This document shows, in pieces, positions 23,679-44,360 of a DNA stretch of 64,000 bases (position 1 is the first letter of the stretch; the number at the start of each line of letters is the position of its first letter). Below the pieces are notes generated by a model. The model searched no databases. It saw only the letters and a list, made by a program, of their open reading frames with translations, and had not been told where the DNA came from. Where the stretch lies: NCBI RefSeq assembly GCF_900637185.1, contig NZ_LR134352.1:4826001-4890000 (forward strand). Reading direction: 5' to 3'. This stretch comes from Nocardia asteroides. GTDB lineage: Bacteria; Actinomycetota; Actinomycetes; Mycobacteriales; Mycobacteriaceae. Both the position numbers and the translations under genes were made by a program.

Positions 23679-23749
23679 CCTGCGCGACACCGGGGCGGTG
23701 CCACAATGGGACCCGACGTGCAGTGACTCGCAACCAGACGGAGGCGGAC

Positions 23750-24859: not shown

Positions 24860-25786
24860 ATGACGCGAGACGACACCGCGCCGCGGAAGAAGACGATCAG
24901 CAACCCCTACATCCACCGCCTGCAGCGCAGGCACTTCCTGCTGTTCGACATCGCGCCGATCGTGGGAACCCTGGCGGCACTGGGCTTCCTGTTCGTGCGC
25001 CCGTTCGGCGCCGTCGAGTTCGGGCTGCTGTTCGCGCTGTGGCTGGCGACCGGACTCGGGATCACCGTCGGCTATCACCGCCTGTTCACCCACCGCACCT
25101 TCCACACCACGCCCGCGGTCGCCGCGACACTGGCCGTGCTCGGTTCGATGGCCGGGCAGGGCCCGGTGGTGTCGTGGGTGGCCTTGCATCGCCGCCACCA
25201 CGAGTACAGCGACCGCGCGGGAGACCCGCACTCGCCCAACCTGTCCGGCGACGGCTGGGTGGGCGCGCTGCGCGGCCTGGCGCACTCGCATTTCCTGTGG
25301 ATGCGCCGCCACGAGTACCCGAACGTCGTGCACTACGCGCCCGATCTGATCAAGGACCGTGCCCTGGTCCGGGTCGCGCGGCTCTACTACTGGTGGGTGG
25401 GCCTGGGTCTGCTGATCCCGGCGGGGCTGGGCGGCCTGCTCACCCAGAGCTGGACGGGCGCGGTCAGCGGTCTGCTGTGGGGCGGGTTCGTGCGGATCTT
25501 CCTGCTCGAACACATCGTGTGGGCGATCAACTCGTTCCTGCACCGGATCGGCACCAAGCCCTACCGGTCCCGCGAGAACAGCCGCAACGGCGGGGTCTTC
25601 GCGCTGGTCACGCTCGGCGAGTCCTGGCACAACAACCATCACGCCTTTCCCGAGTCACCGTCGTTCGGATTGCACTGGTACCGGCTCGATCCCGGCTACT
25701 GGCTGATCTGGACGCTCGAAACCTTCGGCCTGGCCTGGGATCTGAAGATCCCCTCGGCCGACCGCCTGGCCGCCAAACGCGTATGA
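24860..25786 (+). CDS. Membrane fatty-acid desaturase (three His boxes)
   Basis: 308 residues from the ATG at 24860 (GAGGGTGAG upstream). It is an integral membrane diiron enzyme of the acyl-CoA delta-9/JamB type. The three histidine boxes are HRLFTH (near 75), HRRHH (near 112) and HNNHH (near 256), with four or more hydrophobic spans between them. First gene of module A; the ACP begins 9 nt after its stop, so the likely substrate is an acyl-ACP made by the FAAL at 28175. It may form a double bond or, like JamB in jamaicamide synthesis, a triple bond. Confidence 0.92.
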   Translation: MTRDDTAPRKKTISNPYIHRLQRRHFLLFDIAPIVGTLAALGFLFVRPFGAVEFGLLFALWLATGLGITVGYHRLFTHRTFHTTPAVAATLAVLGSMAGQGPVVSWVALHRRHHEYSDRAGDPHSPNLSGDGWVGALRGLAHSHFLWMRRHEYPNVVHYAPDLIKDRALVRVARLYYWWVGLGLLIPAGLGGLLTQSWTGAVSGLLWGGFVRIFLLEHIVWAINSFLHRIGTKPYRSRENSRNGGVFALVTLGESWHNNHHAFPESPSFGLHWYRLDPGYWLIWTLETFGLAWDLKIPSADRLAAKRV

Positions 25787-25795
25787 GGAGCAGTC

Positions 25796-26056
25796 GTGGA
25801 CACCAGTAGAGAAGCCATCGTCGCGTGGTGCCGGGAGTACCTCGCGGAGTTGCTGGAGACACCGACCGCGGCGATCGACCCGCAGGCCGACTTCGACCGT
25901 CTCGGTGTCGATTCCGCGGTGGCCGTCGCGCTGCTCATCGAGGTCGAGGAGCGGTTCGGGGTGGACATCTCCCCCGACGACCTCTACGAGAATCCGACCC
26001 TGGACGCGGTCGCCGGACACCTGCACGCGCAGCTGGCGAACGCGGCCCGTCCGTGA
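25796..26056 (+). CDS. Dedicated acyl carrier protein (module A)
   Basis: 86 residues from a GTG behind GAGGAG. The phosphopantetheine attachment serine is S40 in LGVDSAVAVALL. The acidic helix II is LLIEVEERFGVDISPDDLY. The stop overlaps the following methyltransferase start by 4 nt (GTGA). A free-standing ACP between a desaturase and a FAAL-containing operon indicates that it carries the fatty acid during tailoring. Confidence 0.93.
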   Translation: MDTSREAIVAWCREYLAELLETPTAAIDPQADFDRLGVDSAVAVALLIEVEERFGVDISPDDLYENPTLDAVAGHLHAQLANAARP

Positions 26057-26949
26057 CCGGTCCGGCCGGCGCGGCGCGCACCGAGGCAGCGGCGGCGGCG
26101 ATCCGGCACCACTACGACGTCGGCAACGACTTCTACCGCCTGTGGCTCGACGACTCGCTGAGCTATTCGTGCGCCATGCCCGCCTCCCCCGGCGACACCC
26201 TGGCTGCGGCGCAGGAACGCAAGCTGGCCCACCATCTGCGCGCGGTCGGCGCCGAGCACGCCGAGTCGCTGCTCGACATCGGCTGCGGCTGGGGCGCGGT
26301 GCTGGCGCGCGCAAGCGCCGGTCACGGCGTGCCGCGGCTGACCGGGTTGACCCTCAGCGACGAGCAGGCCCGCCACGTCCGTGCCCTGGATCTGCCCGGC
26401 GTCGAGGTGCACACGCGCAGCTGGGTGGACTTCGAGCCGAAGTCCCGGTTCGACGGGATCGTCTCGATCGGCGCGTTCGAGCATTTCGCGCGGCCCGACG
26501 ACACTCCCGCCGCCAAGGTCGCGGTGTATCGGGAGTTCTTCACCCGCTGCCGCGACTGGCTGACCGTCGACGGCGCCCTGTCGCTGCAGACGATCGTCTA
26601 CGGCAACATGCGCCGCGAGCAGGCCAGCGCGTTCATGCAGCAGCAGATCTTCCCCGACGCCGACTTGCCCACCCTCGCCGAGATCACCGCGGCCGCCGAC
26701 GGGGTGTTCGCGATCGTCGCGCTCACCGACGACCGGCTCGACTACGCCTGGACCTGCGAGCAGTGGGCCCGCAGGCTGCGCGCGCGACGCGCCGAGGCGG
26801 TGGCCCTGGTCGGCGCCGAGACGGTCGCCCGGTACGAGCGGTATCTGAAGATGTCGGCGCTGGGCTTCCGGATGGGCAAGCTCGGCCTGCTGCGGATCGT
26901 CGCCCGCCCGCACCCGGACACGTTCCTCTCGCGTGGACGAGGCCGATGA
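26053..26949 (+). CDS. Cyclopropane-fatty-acid-synthase-like SAM methyltransferase (module A)
   Basis: 298 residues from a GTG overlapping the ACP stop. HHYDVGNDFYRLWLDDSLSYSCA at 19-41 (here split: HHYDVGNDFY, LSYSCA) and the SAM motif DIGCGWGAV at 75-83 place it in the CFA synthase/mycolic-acid methyltransferase family. The family transfers a methyl group to a cis double bond, giving cyclopropane, methylene or methyl branches. EHFARPDD and the C-terminal CEQWARRL helix fit. The adjacent desaturase would supply the double bond. It overlaps the P450 by ATGA. Confidence 0.9.
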   Translation: MTGPAGAARTEAAAAAIRHHYDVGNDFYRLWLDDSLSYSCAMPASPGDTLAAAQERKLAHHLRAVGAEHAESLLDIGCGWGAVLARASAGHGVPRLTGLTLSDEQARHVRALDLPGVEVHTRSWVDFEPKSRFDGIVSIGAFEHFARPDDTPAAKVAVYREFFTRCRDWLTVDGALSLQTIVYGNMRREQASAFMQQQIFPDADLPTLAEITAAADGVFAIVALTDDRLDYAWTCEQWARRLRARRAEAVALVGAETVARYERYLKMSALGFRMGKLGLLRIVARPHPDTFLSRGRGR

Positions 26950-28178
26950 CGACCGCTCCCGCGATCCGGTTCAATCCGTTCAGCGCCGAGTTCCGTCGCG
27001 ACCCGTACCCGGTGTACCGGGCGTTGCGGGCCACCCGGCCGGTTCACAAGACACTCGGCATGTGGGTACTCACCCGCCACGCCGACGCGCGAGAAGTGCT
27101 GCACGACAAGAGCTTCGGTGCGGGACTGATACCGGAACTGGTCACCGCGCAGGCCCGCAGGCTGGGTGCGCCCGACATCGCGCGGATCGAGCGGCTGGGC
27201 CGCACCTCGCTGGTGTTCACCGACGATCCCGCGCACGCCCGGTTGCGTGGTTTGGTGAACAAGGTGTTCACGGCGCGGGCCGTCGCGGCGATGGAGCCCA
27301 CGGTGGCCGCGATCGCCGAACGGCTGCTGCGTCCGGCCGTGGCGGCCGGGGGCGCCGACGTGGTCGCCGCGCTGGCCGGGCCGCTGCCGGTCGCGGTGCT
27401 GTGCGAGTGGATGGCGCTGCCGCCCGCGCTGCACGCCTGGGTCGGCGGCTGGACCCACGACATCCGCTTCCTGCTGGAGCCGGGCCTGATGACCGCGCCG
27501 GACCTGGCCCGGGTGCGCACGGTGGTCGACCTGTTCGCCGACGCCCTGGCCGACGTGCTCGCCGAGCGACGGGCCGCCCCCGGTGACGATCTGATCAGCC
27601 TGCTGCTCGCGGCCAGGACGGCCAACGGCGACACGCTCACCGACGAGGAGCTGATCTTCGTCTGCGTCATGTGTTTCGTGGCGGGCACCGAGACCACCAA
27701 AGCCCTCATCGGCACCGCCACCCTGGCGCTGCTGCGGCATCCGGACCAGGCCGCGCTGGTGCGGCAGTCCCCCGAGCGGCTCCCCGCCGCCGTCGCCGAG
27801 GCTCTGCGCTACGACGCGCCCCTGCAGCTGACCAAACGGCTGGCCACCCGCGACGTGGTGATCGGTGGCGAGACGATCCAGGCGGGCGAGCACGTCCTGG
27901 TGTGTCTGGGTGCGGCCAATCGCGATCCCGCCGTCTTCGCCCGCGCCGACGAGTTCGACGTCACCCGCGTCCCCGGCGACCACCTCGCCTTCGGGCACGG
28001 CATGCACGGCTGTCTCGGCGGCGCGCTCGCCCAGCTGCAAGCCCGGATCGCCCTCGGCGCACTGCTGCGGCGGCACCCCCGCCTGGCCGCCCCCGCCGGC
28101 GAATTCGCCTGGCAGCAGCACAGTTTCCTGCTGCGCGGACTGGACAGCCTGCCGGTGTCGTTCGGCGCGGGCCGATGA
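26946..28178 (+). CDS. Cytochrome P450 (module A)
   Basis: 410 residues from the ATG at 26946 (ATGA overlap). Oxygen-binding I-helix FVAGTETTK near 240, ExxR in EALRY near 280, and haem loop FGHGMHGCLGG near 347-357 with the Cys ligand. It is a soluble bacterial class I P450. Being translationally coupled to an ACP/FAAL operon suggests oxidation of the ACP-bound chain, as BioI does in Bacillus; this is inference. No ferredoxin gene is nearby. Confidence 0.93.
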   Translation: MTTAPAIRFNPFSAEFRRDPYPVYRALRATRPVHKTLGMWVLTRHADAREVLHDKSFGAGLIPELVTAQARRLGAPDIARIERLGRTSLVFTDDPAHARLRGLVNKVFTARAVAAMEPTVAAIAERLLRPAVAAGGADVVAALAGPLPVAVLCEWMALPPALHAWVGGWTHDIRFLLEPGLMTAPDLARVRTVVDLFADALADVLAERRAAPGDDLISLLLAARTANGDTLTDEELIFVCVMCFVAGTETTKALIGTATLALLRHPDQAALVRQSPERLPAAVAEALRYDAPLQLTKRLATRDVVIGGETIQAGEHVLVCLGAANRDPAVFARADEFDVTRVPGDHLAFGHGMHGCLGGALAQLQARIALGALLRRHPRLAAPAGEFAWQQHSFLLRGLDSLPVSFGAGR

Positions 28179-29893
28179 CCCGGCCCGGACAGCTGCTGCC
28201 CGAGGTGCTGCGCGAACGCGCGGCGACGACACCGGATCGGGTCGCCTTCCGGTTCCTCGACGAGACCGGCACGGAGAACGGCCATCTCACCTACGCCGGC
28301 TTGCACGCACGGGCCGCGGCGGTGGCGGCGCGGCTGCGCGCGGTGTGCGCGCCGGGTGACCGGGCGCTGCTGGTCTACCCGACGGGACCGGATTTCCTGG
28401 CCGCGTTCTTCGGGTGCCTGTACGCGCGGGTGATCGCGGTCCCGGTGAATCCGCCGCGCCGCGGACACGTGCAGCAGGCCACGCGCGCCATCGTCCTCGA
28501 CTGCACGCCCGCGGTCGTCCTGACCGAGGCCGCCGCCGTGGAGCCGCTGCGCGCGGCCCTCGCGCCGCTGCTGCCCGGCGCGCGGTGGCTCACCGCCGGC
28601 CTTCCCGGCGACACCGCCTTCGCGGCCGAGCCGATCGAACCGGACGCGGTGGCGTTGCTGCAGTACACCTCCGGCTCCACGGCCACGCCCAAGGGCGTGC
28701 TGGTCTCGCACCGCAATCTGGCGGCCAATCAGGAGATGATCCGGCTGGCCTTCGGCCACGACAGCGGGTCCACCGTGGTCGGCTGGGCGCCGCTGTTCCA
28801 CGACCAGGGGCTGATCGGCAATGTGCTGCAACCACTCTGGGTGGGTGCGACCAGTGTGCTGATGGCGCCGGCCACCTTCGTGCGACGGCCGCTGTTGTGG
28901 CTGCGAGCGATCGGCGAGTACCGCGCGCACTCGAGCGGCGGACCGAACTTCGCCTTCGACGCCTGCGTGGCCAGGGCCGCCGCCGAACCACCGGCCGGGC
29001 TGGATCTGACCAGCTGGCAGGTCGCGTTCAACGGCGCGGAACCGATCCGCGCCGCCACCCTGGCCCGGTTCGCCGAGACCTTCGCCGCGTACGGTTTCCG
29101 CGCGACCTCGCTGTACCCGTGTTACGGGTTGGCCGAGGCGACGCTGCTGGTCACCGGCAGCGGCAAGGGCCGGGGTCCGCGCACCCTGACCGCCGACGCC
29201 GCGGCACTCGGCGCGGGCCACTACCGTCCCGCCCGGGCGGGGAAGCCGCGCACACTGGTGAGTTCGGGCCGCGTCCTGTCCGGCGAGCGGGTCCGCGTCG
29301 TCGACACCGCCACCCTGCGACCGTGCCCACCCGGGCGCGCCGGGGAGATCTGGGTCGCGGGAGACCATGTGGCCCAGGGCTATTGGCAGCGGCCCGAGGC
29401 GAGTGCCGAACTGCTGCGGGCGCGCGCCGCCGACGATCCGCGCACCGGCTGGTTGCGCACCGGCGATGTCGGCCTGCTGGTCGACGGCGAGCTGTACGTG
29501 GTCGGCCGGGTCAAGGACATGGTGATCATCCGCGGGCGCAACCACTATCCGCACGACATCGAGGACACCGTGCAGTCGGCGCATCCCGCGCTGCGCCACG
29601 GCGGGTCCGCCGCCTTCGCCGCCCCGGGCGCGGACGGCGAACGGCTGGTCGTCGTGCAGGAACTGCGCCGCGACCGGCTCGACGCCGACCCGGCCGAGGT
29701 GCGTGGCGCCATCCGGTCCGCGATGCTCCGCGAGCACGATCTCGCCGTGGGCGATCTGGTGCTGACCCTGCCCGGCCAGCTCGCCAAGACCAGCAGTGGC
29801 AAGATCATGAGGTCGGCCGCCCGCGCCCGCTACGCGGCGGCGGGATTCGCCGCCTGGCCGCATCCGCCCGAACGAGGAGCCGGACCCCGATGA
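28175..29893 (+). CDS. Fatty acyl-AMP ligase, FAAL (module A)
   Basis: 572 residues, ATGA overlap with the P450. It activates a fatty acid as acyl-AMP and passes it to an ACP. P-loop YTSGSTATPKGV near 163-174, GWAPLFHDQGLIG near 204, SGGPNFAFDAC near 250, NGAEPIRAATL near 288, YGLAEATLLV near 318, GWLRTGDVG near 427 and the C-terminal catalytic TSSGKIMR near 540. NGAEPI, FHDQGLIG and SGGPNFA are FAAL rather than acyl-CoA ligase features. The likely partner is the ACP at 25796. Confidence 0.93.
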   Translation: MTRPGQLLPEVLRERAATTPDRVAFRFLDETGTENGHLTYAGLHARAAAVAARLRAVCAPGDRALLVYPTGPDFLAAFFGCLYARVIAVPVNPPRRGHVQQATRAIVLDCTPAVVLTEAAAVEPLRAALAPLLPGARWLTAGLPGDTAFAAEPIEPDAVALLQYTSGSTATPKGVLVSHRNLAANQEMIRLAFGHDSGSTVVGWAPLFHDQGLIGNVLQPLWVGATSVLMAPATFVRRPLLWLRAIGEYRAHSSGGPNFAFDACVARAAAEPPAGLDLTSWQVAFNGAEPIRAATLARFAETFAAYGFRATSLYPCYGLAEATLLVTGSGKGRGPRTLTADAAALGAGHYRPARAGKPRTLVSSGRVLSGERVRVVDTATLRPCPPGRAGEIWVAGDHVAQGYWQRPEASAELLRARAADDPRTGWLRTGDVGLLVDGELYVVGRVKDMVIIRGRNHYPHDIEDTVQSAHPALRHGGSAAFAAPGADGERLVVVQELRRDRLDADPAEVRGAIRSAMLREHDLAVGDLVLTLPGQLAKTSSGKIMRSAARARYAAAGFAAWPHPPERGAGPR

Positions 29894-30333
29894 CCCCACA
29901 GGCCCCGAATCCCGATTTCGCCCAGCTGGTGTCGGCCGCGGTGCTGTCCATGCCGGCCGCGGCCCACCTGGGCTTCCACTTCGGCCGGATCGACCCCGGC
30001 GAGGTGGAGATCGTGCAGCCGCACCGGCGCGAACTCACCCAGCACGACGGCTACTTCCAGGGCGGTGTCCTCGGCTCGCTCGCCGATTTCGCCGCCGGCT
30101 CGGCCGCGGGCACCCTGCTGCCCGCGGGCTGGATCAACATGACCGTCGACTACACCGTGAAGATCCTCGCTCCCGCCAAGGGCGCGACCGTCCTCGCCCG
30201 CGGCCGGGTGATCAAGCCGGGTTCGCTGCTCACCATCGCCGCCGCCGAGGTCTTCTCCGTCGAGGACGACGCCGAGATCCTCTGTGCCACCGCGCTGGTC
30301 ACGATGCGCAACATCCGCGTCGCCGGCACGTAG
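29890..30333 (+). CDS. PaaI-type hotdog thioesterase (module A)
   Basis: 147 residues, ATGA overlap with the FAAL. Hotdog fold: HDGYFQGGVLGSLADFAAG then INMTVDYTVKILAPAKG. In most PaaI-family enzymes the turn before the central helix reads HGG or HAG; here it is QGG, so the usual His is replaced by Gln. It could release the acyl chain from the ACP or, if catalytically altered, bind it. Last gene of module A, ending 4 bp from a convergent gene. Confidence 0.85.
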   Translation: MTPQAPNPDFAQLVSAAVLSMPAAAHLGFHFGRIDPGEVEIVQPHRRELTQHDGYFQGGVLGSLADFAAGSAAGTLLPAGWINMTVDYTVKILAPAKGATVLARGRVIKPGSLLTIAAAEVFSVEDDAEILCATALVTMRNIRVAGT

Positions 30334-30337
30334 GCGC

Positions 30338-31279
30338 TCAGCGCGGCCGGCGCACCGCCACGACCGTGTAGGGCGTGGCGGGGGTCGGCTCGGTGTCGAA
30401 GCGGGCGTTCGGCAGATACAGCCGATCGCCGTAGGCCGCGATGGTGGCGGGGACGTCGAAGCGGGGATCGGTGACGCGACCGGTGAGCACCCCTGTCGCG
30501 CCCGACGGGTCGAGGTCGATCACCGCGATCGCCTGCTGCCGGTTCTGCACCGCGTACAGCGTGGTGCCGTCGAGGAGCAGCCCGTCACCGTCGACGAGGG
30601 AGGCGCCGCCGAGGTCGACCCGGCGGGTCTCGCCGGTGGCGGGGTCGACCCGGAAGAGCAGGCCGGTGACCGATTGCACGATCAGCAGACCGGTGCCGTC
30701 GGGTGTGCCGACGATGCCGTTGGCGTTGAAAGCGCCTGGCACGTACTCGATCTCGCCGGTGAGCGGCACCCGGACCACCGCCTCGGGCGCGGGCAGGGCG
30801 CCGTCGGGGCCGATCGGCAGGTGATACAGCACGGGCGCGGTGGAGTCGGTGATCCACGCGCCCGCGGACGTGAGCACCACATCGTTGACAAAGGTCGCCT
30901 GGCCGTCGGCGACCCGGTAGTTCGCCAGCTGCGCGCCGGTCCCGGCATCGAGCACCCGGACGTCCCCGCCGGTGCCGCCCGCCACGAACAGCCTGCCGCG
31001 CTCGTCCAGCCGCAGGCCCAGCGCCGGGGTTCCCGGCCCCCGGCTCAGCAGCGCACCGTGCCCCGTCACCAGATTCGCCCGGTAGACCGAGCCGTCGGCC
31101 ATCGACCCCAGATAGGCCATCGGCAGCGATCCGATCGCGATCCCCTCGGGCCGGAACCCTGCGGGTAGCCCGAGCGTCGCGGGGAACAGCAGGTCCTCGG
31201 CCGCAGCGCGGTGCTGGGGCAGCGGGATCGACGCGACGGCTCCGGCGAGCACCGCCGCCACGACGAGCAGGGGCCTCAT
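30338..31279 (-). CDS. Secreted SMP-30-like beta-propeller protein
   Basis: 313 residues with a signal peptide (MRPLLVVAAVLAGAVAS, cleavage near AAA-ED). Repeated blade motifs such as PEGIAIGSLPMAYLGSMADG, LRLDERGRLFVAGG, GAFNANGIVGTPDGTGLLI and DGLLLDGTTLYAV point to a six-bladed SMP-30/gluconolactonase-like propeller. Many actinobacterial relatives carry the name superoxide dismutase, which nothing here supports. Function unknown; it may act on an exported lipid product. GAAGGA precedes the start. Confidence 0.8.
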   Translation of the reverse strand: MRPLLVVAAVLAGAVASIPLPQHRAAAEDLLFPATLGLPAGFRPEGIAIGSLPMAYLGSMADGSVYRANLVTGHGALLSRGPGTPALGLRLDERGRLFVAGGTGGDVRVLDAGTGAQLANYRVADGQATFVNDVVLTSAGAWITDSTAPVLYHLPIGPDGALPAPEAVVRVPLTGEIEYVPGAFNANGIVGTPDGTGLLIVQSVTGLLFRVDPATGETRRVDLGGASLVDGDGLLLDGTTLYAVQNRQQAIAVIDLDPSGATGVLTGRVTDPRFDVPATIAAYGDRLYLPNARFDTEPTPATPYTVVAVRRPR

Positions 31280-31308
31280 CCGATCCTTCGTTCCGTGGGT
31301 GCGGGAAC

Positions 31309-32184
31309 GTCCCGCGACAACGGCGCTACGTCCTGGCCGTCGCCGAGACCACCAGCTTCACCCGCGCCGCCGAACGCTGCCTGGTGGTGCAGTCGGCGCT
31401 GAGCCACCAGATCGCCCGGCTGGAACGGGAACTGGGCGCGCGACTGTTCGAGCGCACGAGCAGGCGGGTCCGGCTCACCCCGGCGGGCGCGGCGTTCCTG
31501 CCCGCGGCCCGGCAATGCCTGGAGGCGGCCGAGCGGGCGGCGGCCGAGGTGGCGGCGGCGGTCGGTGAGGTGCGCGGCAGGCTCGCGGTGGGGTTGATCC
31601 CGACCGTGGCCGCGGTCGATCTGCCCGCCGCCCTGCGCGAATTCCGCACACGGCATCCGCACGTGCGGATCAGCCTGCGGGTCGGCGCCAGCGAGGACCT
31701 GGCCGAGCAGGTCGAGCAGGGCACGCTGGACGTGGCCTTCCTCGGGCTGCCGAGCGGCGCCGCGCCGCGTGGCGTCGCCGTGCGGGAGCTGGCCAGGGAC
31801 CGGCTGGTGGCGGTGGTCGCGCCGGGACACGCCCTGGCGGGCGAGCCGATGGTGACGCTGTCCCGGCTGGCCGCGGAGGTGTTCGTCGATCTGCCCGCGG
31901 GCACGGCCGGCCGGATCCAGTCGGACCTGGCGTTCGCCGCGGCGGGGCTCACCCGCGACGTCGCCTTCGAGGTGACGACCGCGGACTACATCGCCCGCCT
32001 GGTCGGGCAGGACCTGTGTGTGGCGATGCTGCCCGCCGCGCACGCGCCGCACCTGACCGGGGTGCGCACCGTCGAGGTGGCCGACGCGCCGACCCGGGTC
32101 GAGTACGTCGTGTGGAGCCGCGTCGGCCGCAGTCCCGCCGCGTCGGCGTTCCTCGAGGCCCTGGACATCCCGGCCGACGACTGA
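31309..32184 (+). CDS. LysR-type transcriptional regulator, start codon not identifiable
   Basis: About 291 residues. The winged-helix N-terminus is clearly readable from 31318: QRRYVLAVAETTSFTRAAE, then SALSHQIARLERELGARLF, followed by a normal substrate-binding domain (LAVGLIPTVAAVDLPAAL onward). However, the frame has no ATG, GTG or TTG at or upstream of the expected start; the first is GTG at 31384, inside the DNA-binding domain. The gap to the divergent propeller gene is only about 30 nt. Start-codon loss, a non-standard start or a sequencing error could explain this. It may regulate the neighbouring lipid cluster. Confidence 0.75.
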   Translation, partial: VPRQRRYVLAVAETTSFTRAAERCLVVQSALSHQIARLERELGARLFERTSRRVRLTPAGAAFLPAARQCLEAAERAAAEVAAAVGEVRGRLAVGLIPTVAAVDLPAALREFRTRHPHVRISLRVGASEDLAEQVEQGTLDVAFLGLPSGAAPRGVAVRELARDRLVAVVAPGHALAGEPMVTLSRLAAEVFVDLPAGTAGRIQSDLAFAAAGLTRDVAFEVTTADYIARLVGQDLCVAMLPAAHAPHLTGVRTVEVADAPTRVEYVVWSRVGRSPAASAFLEALDIPADD

Positions 32185-32192
32185 GACGGCCG

Positions 32193-32226
32193 CCGGCCCC
32201 GCCTGCCGGACGGCGGGCGGGGCCGG
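32193..32226. terminator. Bidirectional hairpin between LysR and P450 genes
   Basis: CCGGCCCCGCCTGCC pairs with GGCGGGCGGGGCCGG, one wobble, loop about 4 nt. It sits between convergent stop codons at 32184 and 32240. Confidence 0.75.
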
Positions 32227-32239
32227 GGACCGGCGCGGA

Positions 32240-33496: not shown

Positions 33497-33525
33497 GGGT
33501 GGGTCTCCTGGTTCTCCGGTGGTGG

Positions 33526-34821: not shown

Positions 34822-36041
34822 AGGGTCACCGGCAGGTGCCGGATGCCGCGGTGGATCAGGCTGGGCCGGTACTCGATCGGCGCGTCGGCCAGGGCCAGTT
34901 CGGGTGCCCGGTCCAGCAGGGCGCGGATGGCCGCCTCGGCTTCGAGCCGGGCCAGCGGCGCGCCGACACAGTAGTGGATCCCCAGGCTGAACCCGAGATG
35001 CTTACGCGGCGGCCGGTTTCCGGTGAACCGGGTGACGTCGAAGGTGTCGGCGTCGCGGTAGACCCGGTCGTCGCGATTGGCCGAGCCGGTGAGCACGACG
35101 ACGCCGTCGCCGCGGCGGAAGGTGTGCTCGCCCACCCGGGTGTCGGCCAGGGCGACCCGGATCGTGAACTGGGTGGGCGCGTCGTAGCGCAGCATCTCGT
35201 CGATCGCCGGTCCCACGAGGTCGGGGTTCGCCCGCAGCAGGGCCAGCTGGTCCGGGTGGCGCAGCAGCGCGAGCATGCCGTTGCCGATCAGGTTGATCGA
35301 GGTCTCCATGCCCGCGACCAGCAGCAACAGCGACATCCCGATCACCTCGGGTTCGGTGAGGACGTCACCGTCCACGCTCGCGGCGACGAGTTCGCTGAGC
35401 AGATCGGGCCCGGGGCGCTGCTTCTTCTCGCCGATCAGCCGCGCGAAGTGCCCCATGCACGCGAGCGCGGCGTCGGTGCGCGCGGTGATGTCGTCGGGGC
35501 CGAGCCAGGAGTCCGGGTCGCTGCCGCGCGCGATCGCCAATTGCCAGGCGCGGAAGCTGTCTCCGTCGGCCGCGTCGGCGCCGAGCAGCCGCACCGCGAC
35601 CATCGCGACGGCCAGCGGCACCGCCAGATCCTCGAGCACGTCGAGCTCGCCGCGTTCAACGGCGGCGTCGACCAGGCCGTCGACGACCGCCCCCGCCACC
35701 GGCGCTATGGCCCCGACCAGCGCGGGCGTGAACGCCTTGGCGACCAGCTTGCGGTAGCGGCCGTGCTCGGGCGGGTCCATCCGGACGAAGGAGCCGGGGA
35801 TGGCGGCGGTGGTGTCGCGGAAGGGGCTGATCCCGGCGGCGTAGCCGTGTCCCCAGTCGGTGCCGGTGAGCACGGCGGCGCATTCCTCGTAGCGGGTCAC
35901 CAGCGTCACCGGGACATCACCCAGCGCGTACGGGAACAGCGGCGTCGCCTCCCTGACCCGGCGGTAGGCCGGGTAGGGGTCGGCCCGGTGCTCGGGCGCG
36001 AAGGCGTCGAAGGTGAGGTCGGCGGGGACAGCGGTACTCAT
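34818..36041 (-). CDS. Cytochrome P450 (central operon, second gene)
   Basis: 407 residues, ATGA overlap with the preceding P450. I-helix LVAGMETSIN near 240 (Met where neighbours have His), ExxR as EMLR near 282, haem loop FSLGIHYCVGAPLA near 344-357. Class I bacterial P450, CYP107-like in general appearance. Directly coupled to the FAD monooxygenase downstream. Substrate unknown. Confidence 0.92.
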   Translation of the reverse strand: MSTAVPADLTFDAFAPEHRADPYPAYRRVREATPLFPYALGDVPVTLVTRYEECAAVLTGTDWGHGYAAGISPFRDTTAAIPGSFVRMDPPEHGRYRKLVAKAFTPALVGAIAPVAGAVVDGLVDAAVERGELDVLEDLAVPLAVAMVAVRLLGADAADGDSFRAWQLAIARGSDPDSWLGPDDITARTDAALACMGHFARLIGEKKQRPGPDLLSELVAASVDGDVLTEPEVIGMSLLLLVAGMETSINLIGNGMLALLRHPDQLALLRANPDLVGPAIDEMLRYDAPTQFTIRVALADTRVGEHTFRRGDGVVVLTGSANRDDRVYRDADTFDVTRFTGNRPPRKHLGFSLGIHYCVGAPLARLEAEAAIRALLDRAPELALADAPIEYRPSLIHRGIRHLPVTL

Positions 36042-37276
36042 CGGCCCTCCAGGCTGATTCGCAGTTCGGACATGCCGCGCACCACCACGTTCGGGCGGTA
36101 CGGCGGTTCGGCGAGCAGTTCCATCCGCTCGACCCGGGTGGCGACCGCGCGCAGCACCGTCTGCATCTCCAGGCGGGCCAGCGGCGCGCCGAGGCAGTAG
36201 TGCAGCCCGAGCCCGAACGACAGGTGCCGCTCCGGTCGCTGCCCAGGGCGGTAGCGGCCGATGTCGAACCGGTCGGCGTCGGGGAAAGCCCCGGGATCGC
36301 GGGCCGCGGAGCCGATCAGCACGATCACCGCGTCGCCGGGCACGAAGGTCCGTCCGGCGAGCTCGATCTCGTGTCGCGCGGTGCGGGTGGTCAGGTGCAC
36401 GGGCGGGTCGTAGCGCAGTACCTCGTCGACGGCCGGGCCGCACAGCGCGGGGTCCGCGCGCAGCCGGGCGAACTGGTCGGGGTGGCGGATCAGGGCCAGC
36501 AGGCCGTTGCCGATGAGGTTGACGGTGGTCTCGTGCCCGGCCACGACCAGGATCAGCAGGGTGCCGATCAGTTCGGTGCGGGTCAGCCGGACGCCGGCGT
36601 CCTCGGCGTGCACCAGGGCGGTGATCAGGTCGTCGCGCGGGTCGCGGCGGCGCTGGGCGATCAGGTCGCCGAAGAAATCGGTGAAGGCGTGCACGGCGGT
36701 GGTGCGGGCGGCCAGTTCGGCGGGGCTGAGCAGGGTGTCGGGATCGAGGCCGCGCGCGATGTGCGCGGAGATCTCGCGCACATGGGCGTGGGCTTCGGCG
36801 GGCACGCCGAGCAGTTCGCAGATCAGGGTCAGCGGTACGGGATAGGCCAGCGCCTCGAGCACGTCGGTCTCGCGCTCGGCCAGGATTGCGGTGAGCAGTT
36901 CGGCGACGAGCCGCTCGGCGCGCTCGTGCAGCCCGGCCACGGTGCGGGCGGTGAAGGCCTTGCCGACCAGGCCGCGCAGCCGAGTGTGGTCCGGCGGTTC
37001 CATCCACAGGAACGACCCGGGCAGTTCCACCTCGCTGTCGCCGTGCAGCAGTTCCGGTTCCTCGGCGTGGCTCCAGCGCGGGTCGCTCAGGATCGCCTGC
37101 GCCTGGGCGTGCCGGGGCACCAGGTGCACCTCGTGCGGGCCCGGCACGAACGGGCCGGCGGCACGCAGGGTCGCGTAGCTTCGGTAGGGGTCGTGGCGGC
37201 AGTGCGGGGCGACGCTCTCCAGCACCGCGATCTGTACCGGAGTCGGGTCCCCGACCGCGACATGATCGGACGTCAC
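36038..37276 (-). CDS. Cytochrome P450 (central operon, first gene)
   Basis: 412 residues from a GTG behind AAGGAG. I-helix VVAGHETTVN near 243, ExxR as EVLR near 286, haem loop FGLGLHYCLGAPLA near 348-361. The SFLWMEPPDHTRLRGLV segment near 88 matches the P450 at 32240. First gene of the minus-strand P450-P450-FAD-P450 operon, transcribed from the 214-bp divergent gap shared with module B. Confidence 0.92.
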   Translation of the reverse strand: MTSDHVAVGDPTPVQIAVLESVAPHCRHDPYRSYATLRAAGPFVPGPHEVHLVPRHAQAQAILSDPRWSHAEEPELLHGDSEVELPGSFLWMEPPDHTRLRGLVGKAFTARTVAGLHERAERLVAELLTAILAERETDVLEALAYPVPLTLICELLGVPAEAHAHVREISAHIARGLDPDTLLSPAELAARTTAVHAFTDFFGDLIAQRRRDPRDDLITALVHAEDAGVRLTRTELIGTLLILVVAGHETTVNLIGNGLLALIRHPDQFARLRADPALCGPAVDEVLRYDPPVHLTTRTARHEIELAGRTFVPGDAVIVLIGSAARDPGAFPDADRFDIGRYRPGQRPERHLSFGLGLHYCLGAPLARLEMQTVLRAVATRVERMELLAEPPYRPNVVVRGMSELRISLEGR

Positions 37277-37490
37277 CGGCAGCTCCTTGCGCGATATTTC
37301 GGTGTGCGAATTCGCCGCTCATCGTCGCCGCCCGGGAACGCCGAATTCGCGCAGTATCGGCCGCTCCGATCGGGCGATAGCCGAATATCTTTATCAGGCA
37401 GCGCAATTGGGCGATCGACGGTGATTATCGGCGCGTGTATTTCGGAAGTCGTTCAACACGATTTCATATGGCACTGTTGTCGTTTCGGTC
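37277..37490. promoter_or_regulatory. AT-richer divergent promoter region of the P450 operon and module B
   Basis: This 214-bp gap is richer in A/T than its surroundings. It contains GCGAATTCGC (37306-37315), a perfect 10-bp palindrome, and a related palindrome CGAATTCG (37342-37349), centres 35 bp apart, on the P450 side. No convincing -35/-10 pair or ribosome site was found before the ATG at 37491. A shared regulator for both operons is plausible. Confidence 0.45.
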
Positions 37491-39140
37491 ATGAATTCCT
37501 CGGGTTCGGGCGACACGCTCGGTACGCTGCTGGCCGCCGTCGCCACCGCGCATCCACAGGTGCGGGCGACGTTCTGGTCGGTGTCCGAACACCTCGGCTA
37601 CGCCGAGCTGCGGCAGCGGGCGGACACCACCGCCACCGCCCTGCGGCGGCGCGGGATCGGCCGCGGGGAACCGGTGGGCATCCTGTCGCCGAACGCGCCG
37701 GAGTTCCTGACCGCGCTGTTCGGGATCGCCGGGGCGGGCGGGGCGGCCACTCCCCTGCCGCTGCCCGTCGGCGCCCGCGCGACGGCGGCGTATCCGGCCA
37801 AACTGGCCGCGATCACCGCGGCCGCCGGGATGCGCACCGTGCTGGTGTCACCGCGATTCGCGTCGATGATCCCGCTGCTCGGCGGCATCGGCGTCGAGTT
37901 CGTCGACACCACCGGCCTGATCACCGGCGTGACCGCCGAGCCGGACATCCTGCCCGACCTCGGCCCCGGCGACGCGGCGATCGTCCAGTTCACCTCGGGC
38001 AGCACCGCGCTGTCCAAGGGAGTGCGGCTGACCCACGCCAATGTGGTGGCCGGGCTGTCCGCGATCCGCACCGGCATCGACCTCGGGCTGACCGACCAGG
38101 GCGGTTTCTGGCTGCCGCTGTTCCACGACATGGGCCTGTTCGGCACGCTGTCGGCGGTGCTGCGCGGCATCCCCGCCCATGTCTGGTCGCCGCTGGCCTT
38201 CGTCAAGGACCCGGCGCGCTGGCTGTCCGAGTTCGCGGCCACCGGGACCACCATCACCGCCATGCCGAACTTCGGCTACGAGGCGTTGCTCGGCGCGATC
38301 CCGCCCGAGCGCGTCGCCGACTACGACCTGAGCCACTGGCGGATCGCGTTCAACGGCGCCGAGCCGATCGCGGAGCCGGTGGTGAGCGCCTTCTGCGCGC
38401 GGTTCGCGCCGGCCGGGTTCGCGCCGTCGACGATGTTCGGCGTGTACGGCATGGCCGAGGCCACCCTGGCCGTGGCGTTCCCGCCGCTGCTGCGCGAGCC
38501 CGTGTTCGAGTGGGTCGACCGCGCACGGCTGTCGGATTCGGCACTGGCCCAGCCGGTTCCGCGCACCGATGCCGGTGCCAGGGCCGTGGCCTCGGTCGGT
38601 GCGCCGGTGGCCGGGATCGCGCTGCGCATCGTCGACCTCGACAGCGGCGCGGAGCTGCCCGACGGCCGGGTCGGCGAGATCCTCATCCAGGGCGCGCCCG
38701 TCACCCCCGGCTATCTGAGCGCCGACCCGGACGCGGTCGCCGACCGGTTCACCGACGGCTGGCTGCGCACCGGCGACCTCGGCTACCGCCGCGACGGCGA
38801 ACTGTTCGTCACCGGCCGCTGCAAGGACATGATCACCGTGCGCGGCGTGAACTACTACGCCCAGGACGTGGAGGCCGCGGTCCGTGACCTCGACGGCATC
38901 CACCAGGCCCGCTGCACCGCCGCCGTCGATCCCGACGACGACGTGATCGCGCTGATCGCCGAGACCGAACGCACCGGGCCCGACGCCGAAGCCCTCGCCG
39001 CCGCCGTGCGGGCCGCCGTCGCCGCCCACCTCGGGCTCTCCGCGGTGCGGGTGCACCTGGTGCCGCCGCGCAGCATCCCCCGCACCAGCAGCGGCAAGCT
39101 CCAGCGGCTGGCCGCCCGTGACCTGATCGGCCGGCGCTGA
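37491..39140 (+). CDS. Fatty acyl-AMP ligase, FAAL (module B)
   Basis: 549 residues. P-loop FTSGSTALSKGV near 165-176, FWLPLFHDMGLFG near 204, MPNFGYEAL near 258, NGAEPIAEPV near 286, YGMAEATLAV near 320, GWLRTGDLGY near 423 and TSSGKLQRL near 536. PLFHDMGL and NGAEPI favour a FAAL that loads an ACP rather than CoA. Probable partner is the ACP at 40509. Clearly diverged from the module A FAAL, so the two may take different chains. First gene of module B. Confidence 0.92.
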   Translation: MNSSGSGDTLGTLLAAVATAHPQVRATFWSVSEHLGYAELRQRADTTATALRRRGIGRGEPVGILSPNAPEFLTALFGIAGAGGAATPLPLPVGARATAAYPAKLAAITAAAGMRTVLVSPRFASMIPLLGGIGVEFVDTTGLITGVTAEPDILPDLGPGDAAIVQFTSGSTALSKGVRLTHANVVAGLSAIRTGIDLGLTDQGGFWLPLFHDMGLFGTLSAVLRGIPAHVWSPLAFVKDPARWLSEFAATGTTITAMPNFGYEALLGAIPPERVADYDLSHWRIAFNGAEPIAEPVVSAFCARFAPAGFAPSTMFGVYGMAEATLAVAFPPLLREPVFEWVDRARLSDSALAQPVPRTDAGARAVASVGAPVAGIALRIVDLDSGAELPDGRVGEILIQGAPVTPGYLSADPDAVADRFTDGWLRTGDLGYRRDGELFVTGRCKDMITVRGVNYYAQDVEAAVRDLDGIHQARCTAAVDPDDDVIALIAETERTGPDAEALAAAVRAAVAAHLGLSAVRVHLVPPRSIPRTSSGKLQRLAARDLIGRR

Positions 39141-39178
39141 CCCGCGCCACCCACCCCGCGACCGAATGGGAGTGCCCC

Positions 39179-39967
39179 GTGCACAGTTACGACATCTTCC
39201 GCCACTACGAACGCCTGCACTGGAACCTCGGCGACCTCGCCCTGGACACCGTCGACCCGGCCCTGGTCCGCCCCGAGTACATCACCCTGGCCAAGAGCGC
39301 GGCGATGGGCGAGTCCAATGTGATCGCGGCCGTGCACGGCTTCCTCGACGAGTTCGTCGACGACTACGACTTCTCCACCTTCGCGGTGGTGTGGGGCTAT
39401 CAGGAAGTGCAGCACCACTACGCCTTCCGCGCCTGGCTGCGCGCCGTCGGCGAGGACGTCGCCGACCGCGCGGTCGACGCGATGCGCGAGCCGTACGCGC
39501 CGGGCAGCACGCCCTCGGCGACCCTGGCCACCAACATCATCTCCGAGCTCACGGTCAATCACGTGTACCGGGCGGTGTCGGGCTGGGTGGCCGAGCCGGT
39601 GCTGAAGACGTTGCTGCTCAACGCCAGTCGTGACGAGGCGGGCCATGCCCGGGAGTTCATCCACTACACCACCGAGCGGCTGCGCAGGCGGCCCGAGGAA
39701 CTGCCGTCGGTGCTCGAGACGCTCTACGTCTACAGCTCCGAGGCCAAGATCAAGCATCCGGTGAGCACGTTCAAGGCCGGCATCGCCGAACTGGGCGACC
39801 ACGAGACCATCGACACCGGCTTCGACCTGTTCCTCGAGCAGGTCGCCGCCGAGGGCGAGCTCGAGGTGCTGCACGACAAGGTACGCCGCACCTTCGCCGG
39901 CATCACCGGCCTCGACCTGTCCAGCAACGCGAAGGTGCGCCGCGCCCTCGCCGACGCCATCGCCTGA
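39179..39967 (+). CDS. Ferritin-like diiron protein (module B)
   Basis: 262 residues from a GTG. A four-helix diiron ligand set can be read: E45, E76-x-x-H79 (QEVQHHY), E123, E153-x-x-H156 (DEAGHAREF). This spacing is that of acyl-ACP desaturases and related ferritin-like oxygenases, although the protein is shorter than plant or mycobacterial desaturases. It may desaturate or hydroxylate the ACP-bound chain. Stop and next start share one base (TGATG), giving tight coupling. Confidence 0.82.
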   Translation: MHSYDIFRHYERLHWNLGDLALDTVDPALVRPEYITLAKSAAMGESNVIAAVHGFLDEFVDDYDFSTFAVVWGYQEVQHHYAFRAWLRAVGEDVADRAVDAMREPYAPGSTPSATLATNIISELTVNHVYRAVSGWVAEPVLKTLLLNASRDEAGHAREFIHYTTERLRRRPEELPSVLETLYVYSSEAKIKHPVSTFKAGIAELGDHETIDTGFDLFLEQVAAEGELEVLHDKVRRTFAGITGLDLSSNAKVRRALADAIA

Positions 39968-40512
39968 TGACCACCGGCGACCGGCCCGCGACGGTCGAGG
40001 TGCCGTGGTCGGTGATCCCCGACTACCACTGCTTCGGCTGCTCCCCGCACAACCCCACCGGCCTGCGGCTGACGTTCACCCCCCGCGACGACGGCGCCCT
40101 GGTGGCCGCGTTCCGGCTCGGGCGCGCGTTCGAGTCCTATCCCGGCGTGGTGCACGGCGGCCTGATCGGCGTGATCTGCGACGAGGTGATGGGCAACCTG
40201 ATCGTGCTGGCCCGCCAGGTGCCCGCCTTCACCGTCTCCCAGCGCACCCGCTTCCTCACCCCGCTGGCCGTCGACCGCGACTACCGCTGTGTGGCGACGC
40301 TGCCCACCGGCCGCGGCGCGGGCCCGATTCCGGCGCAGGCGGAGATCCTCGACCTCGACGGCGCGGTGTGCGCCTCCTCGACCGCCACCTACCAGCCGTT
40401 CGACCTGCACGCCGAGCGTGCCCGGCTGACTCTCGGCGACGACGATGTCGCCCTGCTCGACCACGCCCTGTCCACGGCGAACACCTTCTCCCCGAACGGA
40501 GCCCGGCCATGA
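39967..40512 (+). CDS. PaaI-type hotdog thioesterase (module B)
   Basis: 181 residues. The hotdog signature VVHGGLIGVICDEVMGNL holds the usual HGG and helix Asp. The N-terminal CFGCSPHNPTGLRL is a common feature of a PaaI subgroup. Its place between the diiron protein and the ACP suggests release or proofreading of the acyl-ACP. The start overlaps the previous stop, and its stop overlaps the ACP start (ATGA). Confidence 0.87.
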   Translation: MTTGDRPATVEVPWSVIPDYHCFGCSPHNPTGLRLTFTPRDDGALVAAFRLGRAFESYPGVVHGGLIGVICDEVMGNLIVLARQVPAFTVSQRTRFLTPLAVDRDYRCVATLPTGRGAGPIPAQAEILDLDGAVCASSTATYQPFDLHAERARLTLGDDDVALLDHALSTANTFSPNGARP

Positions 40513-40772
40513 CCACCACTTCCGCCGACACCATCCTGCGCACGGTCACCGAGATCGCGATCTCCGAGACCGGCCTGCCCGCCGCCGACCTCACCCCCGA
40601 CGCCGACCTGCGCGCCATGGCGGGCGTGGACTCGGTGCGGGTGCTGCGCATGGTCGCCCGGATCGAGCGCACCTTCGACATCGAACTCGAGGACGCCGAC
40701 GTCTTCGGCATGTCCACCCTGGCCGAGGTCACCGCGGTGGTGGAGCGCGCGGTGCGGGAGACCTCGTCGTGA
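40509..40772 (+). CDS. Dedicated acyl carrier protein (module B)
   Basis: 87 residues. The phosphopantetheine site is S42 in AGVDSVRVLRM, and helix II is RIERTFDIELEDADVF. Overlaps its neighbours at both ends by 4 nt. Little similarity to the module A ACP beyond the core motif, consistent with two separate acyl lines. Confidence 0.92.
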   Translation: MTTTSADTILRTVTEIAISETGLPAADLTPDADLRAMAGVDSVRVLRMVARIERTFDIELEDADVFGMSTLAEVTAVVERAVRETSS

Positions 40773-41602
40773 CCGCCGTCGCCGACACCAATCAGCACTA
40801 CGATCTCGATCCCGACATCTTCGGCCAGTTCCTGGATCCGCTGCGCAAGTACAGCTCCGGGCTGTACGAATCCGAGGACGACACTCTGGAACAGGCGCAG
40901 CGCAACAAGCTGCGGTTCGTCGCCGACCGGCTCGGGCTGTGCGGCGGCGAACAGCTGCTCGACGTGGGCTGCGGGTGGGGCTCGCTGATCCTGTACATGG
41001 CCGGGGAACTGGGCTGTCGCACACTGGGGGTGAGCCCGGCGCCGCGCCAGCACGACTACATCGCCGAGCAGGCGGCGGCGCGCGGCGTGGCCCACCTGGT
41101 CGACACCAGGGTCGGGCATTTCGAGCACCTCGACCTGCCCGCCCGCGGATTCGACGCCGTCACGCTGCTCGGTTCGATCGTGCACATGCCCGACCCCGAC
41201 GCGGTGTTCCGGCGGGCCAGGTCGGTGCTGCGCCGCGGCGGCACGCTGTACGTGTCGGAGAGCTGCTTCCGCAACGCCGCCAACCGGACCGCGTTCGACG
41301 ACCGGGCCGGCACCGGATTCGTCCGCGAGGCGATCTTCGGTTTCGGTGAGCTGCGCCCGCTGTCGGAGCTGATCGCGGCCGCCGAGAACGCCGGCTTCTC
41401 GGTGATCTCGGTCGACGATCTCACCGAGCACTACCGGCGCACCATCGAGGACTGGATCGCCAATGTCGACGCCGCCGCCGCGCGCATCGACACCCACGGT
41501 CCCGGCTTGGCCGCCGAGCTGCGCCGCTATCTCGAGATCGCCAACGCGGGCTGGGGTTACACCACCAAGCACTACGCGCTGGTCTGCCGGAATGCGAGGT
41601 AG
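40769..41602 (+). CDS. Cyclopropane-fatty-acid-synthase-like SAM methyltransferase (module B)
   Basis: 277 residues from a GTG overlapping the ACP stop. HYDLDPDIFGQFLD and KYSSGLYES at 10-36 correspond to the CFA synthase entry motif; SAM motif LLDVGCGWGSL at 63-73. More diverged from classic CFA synthase than the module A enzyme, and its C-terminus is shorter. Methyl transfer to an unsaturated ACP-bound chain is likely; a different acceptor is possible. Confidence 0.85.
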   Translation: MTAVADTNQHYDLDPDIFGQFLDPLRKYSSGLYESEDDTLEQAQRNKLRFVADRLGLCGGEQLLDVGCGWGSLILYMAGELGCRTLGVSPAPRQHDYIAEQAAARGVAHLVDTRVGHFEHLDLPARGFDAVTLLGSIVHMPDPDAVFRRARSVLRRGGTLYVSESCFRNAANRTAFDDRAGTGFVREAIFGFGELRPLSELIAAAENAGFSVISVDDLTEHYRRTIEDWIANVDAAAARIDTHGPGLAAELRRYLEIANAGWGYTTKHYALVCRNAR

Positions 41603-41606
41603 CGCC

Positions 41607-42449
41607 ATGATCGGCACAGCGGGGCTGCTGCCGGTGCCGGAGCTGGTCACCGCGGTCGACAGCTTCCTGGCCGCGTCACCGGCGACGCGCGCCTGGGACG
41701 TGGAGACCGCCGTGGACTGGGCCGCCGCCGACGCGGGCAGGCTCACCGAGGGACAGCGTTCGGCGGTGCAGTTCGTGACCCTCATCGAGGACCACCTGCC
41801 CGGCTACTTCGACGTGTATCACCGGCACTTCCCGGTCGACGACACCGTGGACCTGCCCACCTTCGAACACAATCGGGAGCTCTACCACTTCACCGTGCGG
41901 TGGGCGCTCGAGGAGGACACCCACGCCAGGGCGCTGGCCCGCTATCAGGAGGCGGCGGGGATGGCGCAGCGGTCCACGCTGCGCTCGGAGCTGGCGGTGG
42001 AGGGGCACAAGCCGTTCGACCTGCCCTACGACCATCCGGTGCAGTTCTTCGCCTACGCCCTGGTGCAGGAGAAGGCCACGCAGATGTACTACCAGCAGCT
42101 GCGTGACGTGGTCGCCGACCCGGTGCTGGCCGGGGTGCTCACCCGGTTGTCGCGCGACGAGGCCCGCCATTTCAGCTTCATGGCCGACGTGGTGACCCGC
42201 TACCTGCGCCACGACGGTGACGCCGTGGTCACGCCGATCCGCGACGTGGTCGCCCACTTCCGGATGCCGCTGTCGGACACCCTGCGCGGCTACTGGCGCT
42301 GGGCACTGAAGATCGCGGACGTGGCCGACTACGACCACACCGCCGCCTACGAACACCTGGTGAAGGTGATCGACCGCGCCGTCGACGCGCGCACCGAACC
42401 GGTCGACGAACTGGTCGCCTTCGTCGAGAGCTGCCGCGCGCTGGCCTGA
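41607..42449 (+). CDS. Acyl-ACP desaturase-like diiron enzyme (module B)
   Basis: 280 residues from the ATG at 41607. Diiron ligands match the soluble acyl-ACP desaturase (DesA) family: E61 in LIEDHLPGY, E103-x-x-H106 in LEEDTHARAL, E155, and E185-x-x-H188 in DEARHFSF. Mycobacterial DesA1/2 are the nearest concept. It should introduce a double bond into an acyl-ACP, giving a substrate for the adjacent methyltransferase. Last gene of module B, ended by a large hairpin. Confidence 0.9.
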   Translation: MIGTAGLLPVPELVTAVDSFLAASPATRAWDVETAVDWAAADAGRLTEGQRSAVQFVTLIEDHLPGYFDVYHRHFPVDDTVDLPTFEHNRELYHFTVRWALEEDTHARALARYQEAAGMAQRSTLRSELAVEGHKPFDLPYDHPVQFFAYALVQEKATQMYYQQLRDVVADPVLAGVLTRLSRDEARHFSFMADVVTRYLRHDGDAVVTPIRDVVAHFRMPLSDTLRGYWRWALKIADVADYDHTAAYEHLVKVIDRAVDARTEPVDELVAFVESCRALA

Positions 42450-42453: not shown

Positions 42454-42500
42454 ACGACTCCGGCCCCGCCCCGATCGTCTCGGGACGGGGCCGGAGTCGT
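42454..42500 (+). terminator. Long hairpin terminator at the right border of the lipid cluster
   Basis: ACGACTCCGGCCCCG pairs perfectly with CGGGGCCGGAGTCGT (15 bp), with an inner CCCGA/TCGGG stem and a 5-nt loop, followed by TTCTC. It lies 4 bp after the module B stop and next to the convergent hotdog gene. Confidence 0.88.
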
Positions 42501-44351: not shown

Positions 44352-44360
44352 TCGGGGCGG

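Follow-up and report, generated by a model that had tools for sequence, protein, structure and literature searches.

How acyl chains tailored on carrier proteins are made or used, when no condensing enzyme lies among the tailoring genes, is the question raised by positions 24860-42449 of a 64-kb stretch of the Nocardia asteroides genome (G000:C1:4826001-4890000, genome of 6.98 Mb). This stretch is called the window, and positions without a contig name refer to it. An earlier note on this DNA had read the interval as a self-contained cluster that modifies an ACP-bound fatty acid without chain extension. Gene families, motifs, block conservation, co-occurrence and linkage were computed here, and we consider, with a probability of roughly 0.7, that the interval holds two acyl-ACP tailoring modules of a larger secondary-lipid pathway around a Pfa-type iterative fatty acid synthase/polyketide synthase (PKS), mostly outside the window. 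The tailoring genes travel with this nearby synthase of the polyunsaturated fatty acid type in several actinobacterial families, and therefore both together probably make one heavily modified lipid.

The right half of the interval, named the core, has the order FAAL2-diA-hot2-ACP2-MT2-diB.

37491-39140, plus strand: FAAL2 (PF00501; 51 of 51 loci)
39179-39967, plus strand: diA, ferritin-like diiron protein (diiron motifs; no Pfam or NCBIfam match)
39967-40512, plus strand: hot2, hotdog-like by sequence reading only, with no Pfam family found (50 of 51 loci)
40509-40772, plus strand: ACP2 (PF00550, 54.4 bits; DS motif; 51 of 51 loci)
40769-41602, plus strand: MT2, methyltransferase like those of cyclopropane fatty acid (CFA) synthesis (PF02353, 148.9 bits; YSSG and GSIVHM; 51 of 51 loci)
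41607-42449, plus strand: diB, diiron protein of the acyl-ACP desaturase family (PF03405, 57.5 bits, cut-off 22.7; 50 of 51 loci)

These counts, made with gene-specific identity thresholds set in this analysis, refer to 51 named loci chosen by a diA scan, 43 from Nocardia and 8 from five other genera (four from Actinokineospora and the rest from Thermocatellispora, Streptomyces AJS327, Frankia CIT1 and Parafrankia soli). The missing diB belongs to L056, where the end of the stretch cuts the locus. Since the flanks reached 10 kb at most and some contigs were shorter, low counts for neighbouring genes are lower bounds. In 14 fetched loci, 13 from the Frankia family and one from Nocardia, all six core genes were present in nine, including L117 and L119, where diA is on the opposite strand. 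L121 has the core without hot2, and in L114, L118, L123 and L126 diA is of a second type and neither FAAL2 nor MT2 gave a match. Such a diA, more distant (E about 1e-100) and standing beside an ACP, is frequent in genomes of the Frankia family. The 13 Pseudonocardiaceae loci chosen by diA all had FAAL2, hot2, MT2 and diB, and 12 of them ACP2. Of 394 genomes drawn from across the class, 31 carried diA, 29 of these belonging to the Frankia family, and among 249 genomes drawn from Pseudonocardiaceae it was present in 18.

The Pfa block begins at 59293 on the minus strand, 15 kb to the right of P450e (a gene listed below), and continues beyond the end of the window; its ketosynthase (KS) lies 27.9 kb to the right of P450e.

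59293-60648, minus strand: biotin carboxylase, end of the block (PF02786, PF00289, PF02785)
60645-61256, minus strand: biotin carrier protein (PF00364)
61253-63316, minus strand: acetyl-CoA carboxylase carboxyltransferase, start approximate (PF03255, PF01039; by homology)
62938-64000 and on to about 64788, minus strand: PfaD-like enoyl reductase (TIGR02814, 624.8 bits, cut-off 449.25)
Beyond PfaD, to about 77815: FabA protein, PfaA, GDSL, flavoprotein, CoA ligase and LysR

PfaA reached 1516.7 bits with TIGR02813 (NCBIfam cut-off 1010.1) and has the domains KS, acyltransferase (AT), two ACPs seen as PP-binding stretches and then ketoreductase (KR), so that PfaA, like PfaD with its score above the curated cut-off, is of the Pfa type. 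A PfaC with KS, chain length factor and two dehydratase domains, as in type A, was not found: the FabA protein, of 829 aa, has one FabA match and no KS match. Among 59 Nocardia genomes, PfaD (at least 72% identity) occurred in 19 and diA (at least 85%) also in 19; both were present in 18, PfaD only in 1, diA only in 1 and neither in 39 (Fisher 5.4e-13, uncorrected for kinship). Matches of diA of 27-32% and of PfaD below 72% were excluded, and G046, which has diA and a PfaD of 62%, was counted as diA only. PfaD and diA were on one contig in 14 of the 18 genomes, 14.9-54.8 kb apart (23.8 kb in the genome of the window). This almost perfect co-occurrence speaks against the proposed absence of chain extension.

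Linkage was also counted in 78 loci, to which four genomes contributed two each. At least two Pfa-block genes were found within the stretch examined in 19 loci of four families, from Nocardia, Frankiaceae, Thermocatellispora, Actinokineospora and other Pseudonocardiaceae. In eight of the 19, all from Nocardia, only the edge genes LysR and CoA ligase were within reach; L117 and L151 (LysR match only) and L157 (generic PKS match) were left out of the 19. When wider flanks were taken, the greater part of the block came into view in Thermocatellispora (L201) and Actinokineospora auranticolor (L196). In L113/L171, from the Frankia family, and L154/L173, from Pseudonocardiaceae, the core is followed by LysR, CoA ligase, flavoprotein, GDSL, KS protein, FabA protein and PfaD. 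The KS protein of L171 and L173 has 2.1-2.5 kaa, with KS-AT-3 ACP-KR in L171, where the FabA protein was recognised by Pfam. The gene order of the block is common to the genome of the window, Frankia, Pseudonocardiaceae and Thermocatellispora. Eight KS queries taken from the genome of the window matched 8 of the 78 loci, and in L113, L125, L152 and L154 the match was the Pfa KS. With a Pfa-type synthase and its carboxylase genes 15 kb away, co-occurring with the core and adjoining it in other families, the locus can hardly be called self-contained.

The left half of the interval, named module B, is a separate unit.

24860-25786, plus strand: des1, membrane fatty-acid desaturase (PF00487, 83 bits; three His boxes HRLFTH, HRRHH and HNNHH)
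25796-26056, plus strand: ACP1 (PF00550, 68.9 bits; DS motif)
26053-26949, plus strand: MT1, CFA-type methyltransferase (PF02353, 213.6 bits; Cys and Glu kept in YSCA and GAFEHF)
26946-28178, plus strand: P450a (PF00067)
28175-29893, plus strand: FAAL1 (PF00501; FAAL models among the top NCBIfam matches, none above its own cut-off)
29890-30333, plus strand: hot1, hotdog thioesterase-like protein (PF03061, 4HBT, 21.6 bits, cut-off 20.6)

Each of these genes adjoins the core in 3-5 of the 51 loci, again as lower bounds, and the interval taken as a single conserved cluster was for this reason rejected. Co-conservation across related genomes, the lack of which the earlier note had named as speaking against its reading, is thus present within the right half and missing between the two halves. 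Module B genes adjoin the core in three Pseudonocardiaceae loci (L151, L152, L154), and in one genome of this family (G588) about 42 kb hold LysR-GDSL-PfaA-PfaC-PfaD-carboxylase, then des1-ACP1-MT1-P450a-FAAL1 and then the core, with identities of 54% for LysR and GDSL, 50% for PfaA and 49% for FAAL2. MT1, counted at 63% identity or more (next matches 47% or less), occurred in 15 of the 59 Nocardia genomes, 12 of which have diA (Fisher 1.3e-5, uncorrected for kinship), and all 15 have a PfaD of at least 60%. MT1 and PfaD are 12-37 kb apart in six genomes, 570 kb in one (G011) and on different contigs in eight. A second group of PfaD (60-62%) accompanies module B, followed through MT1, in G038 (C1:2426328 and 2444571), G019, G028 and G046; in the first three it stands with MT1 without the core.

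Several observations weigh against a joint pathway with the Pfa synthase. Both tests, PfaD/diA and MT1/diA, are uncorrected for shared ancestry; in 4 of the 18 genomes PfaD and diA are on different contigs, which makes their linkage uncertain; one genome (G025) has PfaD without diA; and the PfaD matches of G009 and G037 have one in-frame stop each. The flanks retrieved, 10 to about 30 kb on each side, showed no Pfa block in the Pseudonocardiaceae loci L146-L150, the Frankiaceae loci L115, L116, L119 and L121, Actinokineospora iranica and Streptomyces AJS327; L194 and L195 gave only LysR matches of 42-43%. In the genome of the window itself, 15 kb of other genes separate P450e from the block, and in 44351-59293 these include an acyl-CoA dehydrogenase, a hydrolase, a sugar-type ABC transporter, a fatty-acid hydroxylase (54996-55853) and an aminotransferase (56649-57890). 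Finally, four loci with a divergent core (L155-L158, diA 47-48%) adjoin a modular type I PKS instead, their KS being 58-66% identical to the modular type I PKS of the genome of the window; L155 and L156 also have a KASIII match. As a separate observation, the acyl-CoA dehydrogenase to the right of the core recurs in 13 Nocardia loci.

Taking these points into account, we weighed the possibility that an ordinary fatty acid is tailored on the ACPs without chain extension, in a pathway complete in itself and independent of the Pfa synthase. It agrees with the lack of any match to KS, condensation domain or KASIII C-domain within the window (the earlier note had rightly seen neither ketosynthase nor nonribosomal peptide synthetase (NRPS) domains in the interval), with the 70 of 78 loci that gave no match to the eight KS queries in the stretches examined, and with the several cores that have no Pfa block within reach. 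The near-perfect co-occurrence in Nocardia, the repeated linkage to the Pfa block in distant lineages and the PKS beside the divergent core lineage make it unlikely. Condensation domains were absent from the 78 loci, and one was found 19 kb from diA in the wider flank of L187.

In a tree of diA with 79 rows, midpoint rooted and with L117 and L151 labelled as Pfa-linked, the group with the modular PKS formed one long, strongly supported branch, and Pfa-linked loci appeared in the Frankia, Pseudonocardiaceae, Thermocatellispora, Actinokineospora and Nocardia parts. Actinokineospora fell inside the Nocardia part and Thermocatellispora next to it, and this placement suggests transfer. Should the polyketide of L155-L158 become known, it could show what the core produces.

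Having the core beside two condensing systems, Pfa-type and modular PKS, favours one version of the joint pathway, in which the FAAL-ACP modules would hand an unusual acyl starter to a condensing enzyme, as JamABC does for jamaicamide; FAAL-ACP pairs often feed PKS or NRPS, according to the available text of PMC11837247. This version is plausible, though we would put it somewhat below even odds: the epoxidase, the P450s and the release enzymes look like late steps, a CoA ligase is already present in the Pfa block, and the FAALs could instead reload a Pfa product.

The remaining genes between and beside the two modules include the predicted epoxidase and most of the P450s.

30338-31279, minus strand: secreted SGL-like protein (PF08450 below cut-off; 3 of 51 loci)
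31279-32184, plus strand: LysR regulator (PF00126, PF03466; 4 of 51 loci)
32240-33496, minus strand: P450b (PF00067; 41 of 51 loci)
33526-34821, minus strand: FMO, flavoprotein homologous to the LasC/MonCI flavin epoxidases (42 of 51 loci)
34818-36041, minus strand: P450c (PF00067; 38 of 51 loci)
36038-37276, minus strand: P450d (PF00067; 40 of 51 loci)
42504-42971, minus strand: hot3, 4HBT hotdog protein (PF03061, 65.7 bits; 46 of 51 loci)
43125-44351, plus strand: P450e (PF00067; 18 of 51 loci)

The inventory given before was found in full within 24860-42449: FAALs, ACPs, diiron proteins, CFA-type methyltransferases and hotdog-like proteins, two of each, together with four P450s, a single His-box desaturase and a single flavoprotein. 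The right edge of this interval is not a natural one, hot3 following the core in 46 of the 51 loci and P450e in 18. The two flanking elements that had been taken for terminators (24771-24802 and 42454-42500) are strong hairpins, with z of -5.3 and -7.3, but they have no T-run and were not called as terminators; the right one stands between the core and hot3.

The motif check covered the gene classes of the interval other than the hotdog proteins, and the motifs checked were all intact. In diA, residues E45, E76xxH79, E123 and E153xxH156 were invariant in 21 sequences, and these diiron motifs are kept although PF03405 gave no match. Its structure model had a pLDDT of 86 (47-65 in the other four models); the best E-value was with an R2-like oxidase and the higher TM-scores, up to 0.66, with the castor stearoyl-ACP desaturase. 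A protein search gave 339 relatives among 7998 scored candidates, and among the 120 matches listed these were named 'ferritin-like', ferritin, rubrerythrin or hypothetical. The closest named homologues are from Nocardia, from 94% downwards, and the protein of the window is 83-85% identical to those of Actinokineospora or Thermocatellispora; diA thus stands for a very conserved diiron protein family. A plasmid search gave only four matches, of about 30% identity over 61% of the query. For diB, the PF03405 match and two EXXH diiron motifs, with ligands invariant in 17 sequences, place it in the acyl-ACP desaturase family.

Both methyltransferases share PF02353 with the cyclopropane synthases of mycolic acids and CFA. 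MT1, aligned to CmaA2 and other cyclopropane synthases, keeps the Cys of YSCA and the Glu of GAFEHF, which we take to be the bicarbonate-site residues, and belongs with the CFA/cyclopropane synthases. MT2 differs from them in both: of 14 aligned orthologs, 13 have Ser and one has Ala at position 30 (the Cys site), and position 138 (the Glu site) is Val in all 14. Because both residues are replaced, ordinary cyclopropanation by MT2 is unlikely, given their role in cyclopropane synthases. What had been said of the methyltransferases suits MT1, whereas MT2 lacks these two residues. That an ACP-bound acyl chain is desaturated, methylated and oxidised, as proposed before, is probable from family membership and intact motifs.

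A modification of the Nocardia envelope, for example of mycolates, would fit the similarity of the methyltransferases to mycolic-acid cyclopropane synthases and the match of diB to DesA2 of Mycobacterium. Yet diA, and with it the core, occurs in just 19 of the 59 Nocardia genomes, and the core is also present in Frankiaceae, Actinokineospora and Thermocatellispora, which are not known to make mycolates; we regard this explanation as very unlikely.

The closest solved relatives of FMO in a search of the PDB were LasC/Lsd18 (E 6e-54) and MonCI (E 1e-48). FMO resembles these polyether epoxidases in sequence, and alkene epoxidation is its predicted activity; LasC and MonCI belong to modular polyether PKS systems, whereas FMO stands in a fatty-acid setting. 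The top solved matches of P450b and P450d include CYP164A2, PikC and PksS, which do not indicate a substrate.

For the joint pathway we infer every reaction, the step order and the product from these assignments. FAAL2 would load a fatty acid onto ACP2; diB, and probably diA, would desaturate or otherwise oxidise the bound chain; MT2 may methylate it by chemistry other than standard cyclopropanation; and hot2 and hot3 could release it from the core module. The LasC/MonCI-like FMO would epoxidise an alkene and the P450s would hydroxylate. In module B (FAAL1-ACP1-des1-MT1-P450a-hot1) a second acyl-ACP would be desaturated and cyclopropanated or methyl-branched, and the Pfa synthase, which is accompanied by carboxylase genes of its own, would make or extend the chain. 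Tailoring might either prepare a starter before assembly or follow assembly. A bolder reading, which we find doubtful, is that the FAAL-ACP-diiron-methyltransferase-diiron operon of the core would be a new portable acyl-ACP tailoring cassette, attached by actinobacteria to Pfa-type synthases and to modular PKS, and that with the MonCI-type epoxidase it would convert an unsaturated fatty chain into a lipid bearing an epoxide or cyclic ether, the bacterial equivalent of fatty-acid-derived polyethers; the product of the Pfa clusters in Nocardia and Frankia would thereby find its explanation.

No characterised cluster with this gene set was found in the literature, most subscription journals not being covered. 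The system resembles the Pfa-type secondary lipid synthases in PfaA (KS-AT-2xACP-KR), PfaD and the FabA-domain protein, and differs from the clusters in the available part of PMC3098273 in the 829-aa FabA protein without a KS match, the carboxylase genes and the two FAAL/ACP tailoring modules. In that part, type M is assigned to three Frankia genomes and counted, with others, among clusters with uncharacterised products. The pfaA of Nocardia PKS cluster #11 has the domains KS/AT/ACP/ACP/KR, as PfaA has here, and is reported in N. asteroides, N. otitidiscaviarum and two N. brasiliensis strains, HUJEG-1 and one printed as IFM 10487 (PMC4035055), which is perhaps IFM 10847, the strain of the core-bearing locus L055. 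Its predicted products, polyunsaturated fatty acids, had not yet been found in Nocardia, and the portions of that account available to us do not mention the tailoring core. The desaturases of N. brasiliensis are listed in PMC3670865, in the part at hand.

A cluster for polyynes or terminal alkynes, like those of caryoynencin and Jam, is suggested by FAAL, ACP, His-box desaturase, P450 and hotdog proteins standing together. Polyyne clusters typically have two or more His-box desaturases in a row, and here a single PF00487 desaturase was found, in the separable module B; no rubredoxin-like motif turned up when the window was scanned in six frames by regex, not by profile. The core shares with the JamABC and polyyne cassettes a free FAAL and ACP and desaturation on the carrier (PMC8406139 and PMC11837247, as far as available), and differs from them in its soluble ferritin-like diiron enzymes and its methyltransferase; the word 'methyltransferase' is absent from the main text of the polyyne survey PMC8406139, by which some actinobacterial polyyne clusters also lack rubredoxin. 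We consider a polyyne cluster hardly credible. Among the FAAL pathways listed in the consulted part of PMC11837247, none like this set was found. Amycomicin, an epoxy isonitrile fatty acid in which AmcQ, AmcB and P450s form the isonitrile, epoxy and keto groups (PMC13273461, seen in part), was also compared, and no isonitrile former was recognised among the genes named here, no search aimed at one having been made.

The observation behind the earlier note was right and useful, though its headline was not: the interval most likely supplies the tailoring enzymes for a secondary-lipid cluster of the Pfa type. Surveys of Frankia (2011) and Nocardia (2014) recorded clusters of this type with uncharacterised products, a plain polyunsaturated fatty acid being predicted for Nocardia; the near-perfect co-occurrence in Nocardia with the FAAL, diiron, methyltransferase and epoxidase set predicts a much more modified lipid, and single-gene knock-outs offer a route to it.

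Some minor observations concern the neighbouring genes. The SGL-like gene, which adjoins the core in close relatives only, and the LysR gene had been omitted from the earlier list. In the LysR frame (31279-31440) no ATG, GTG or TTG was found upstream of the helix-turn-helix, which points to an unusual start or a damaged gene. ARAGORN predicted a 98-nt tRNA-Ala at 24305-24402 on the minus strand, within the coding frame of an oxidoreductase (23723-24736), and it is probably spurious. Elsewhere in the genome, at about 6855764-6898699 of G000:C1, a single open frame of 14617 aa contains numerous condensation domains and corresponds to a very large NRPS. In six Nocardia loci (L074, L078, L063, L066, L068 and L071) P450b and FMO are kept and no P450c or P450d match of at least 62% lies beside the core, which suggests product variants.

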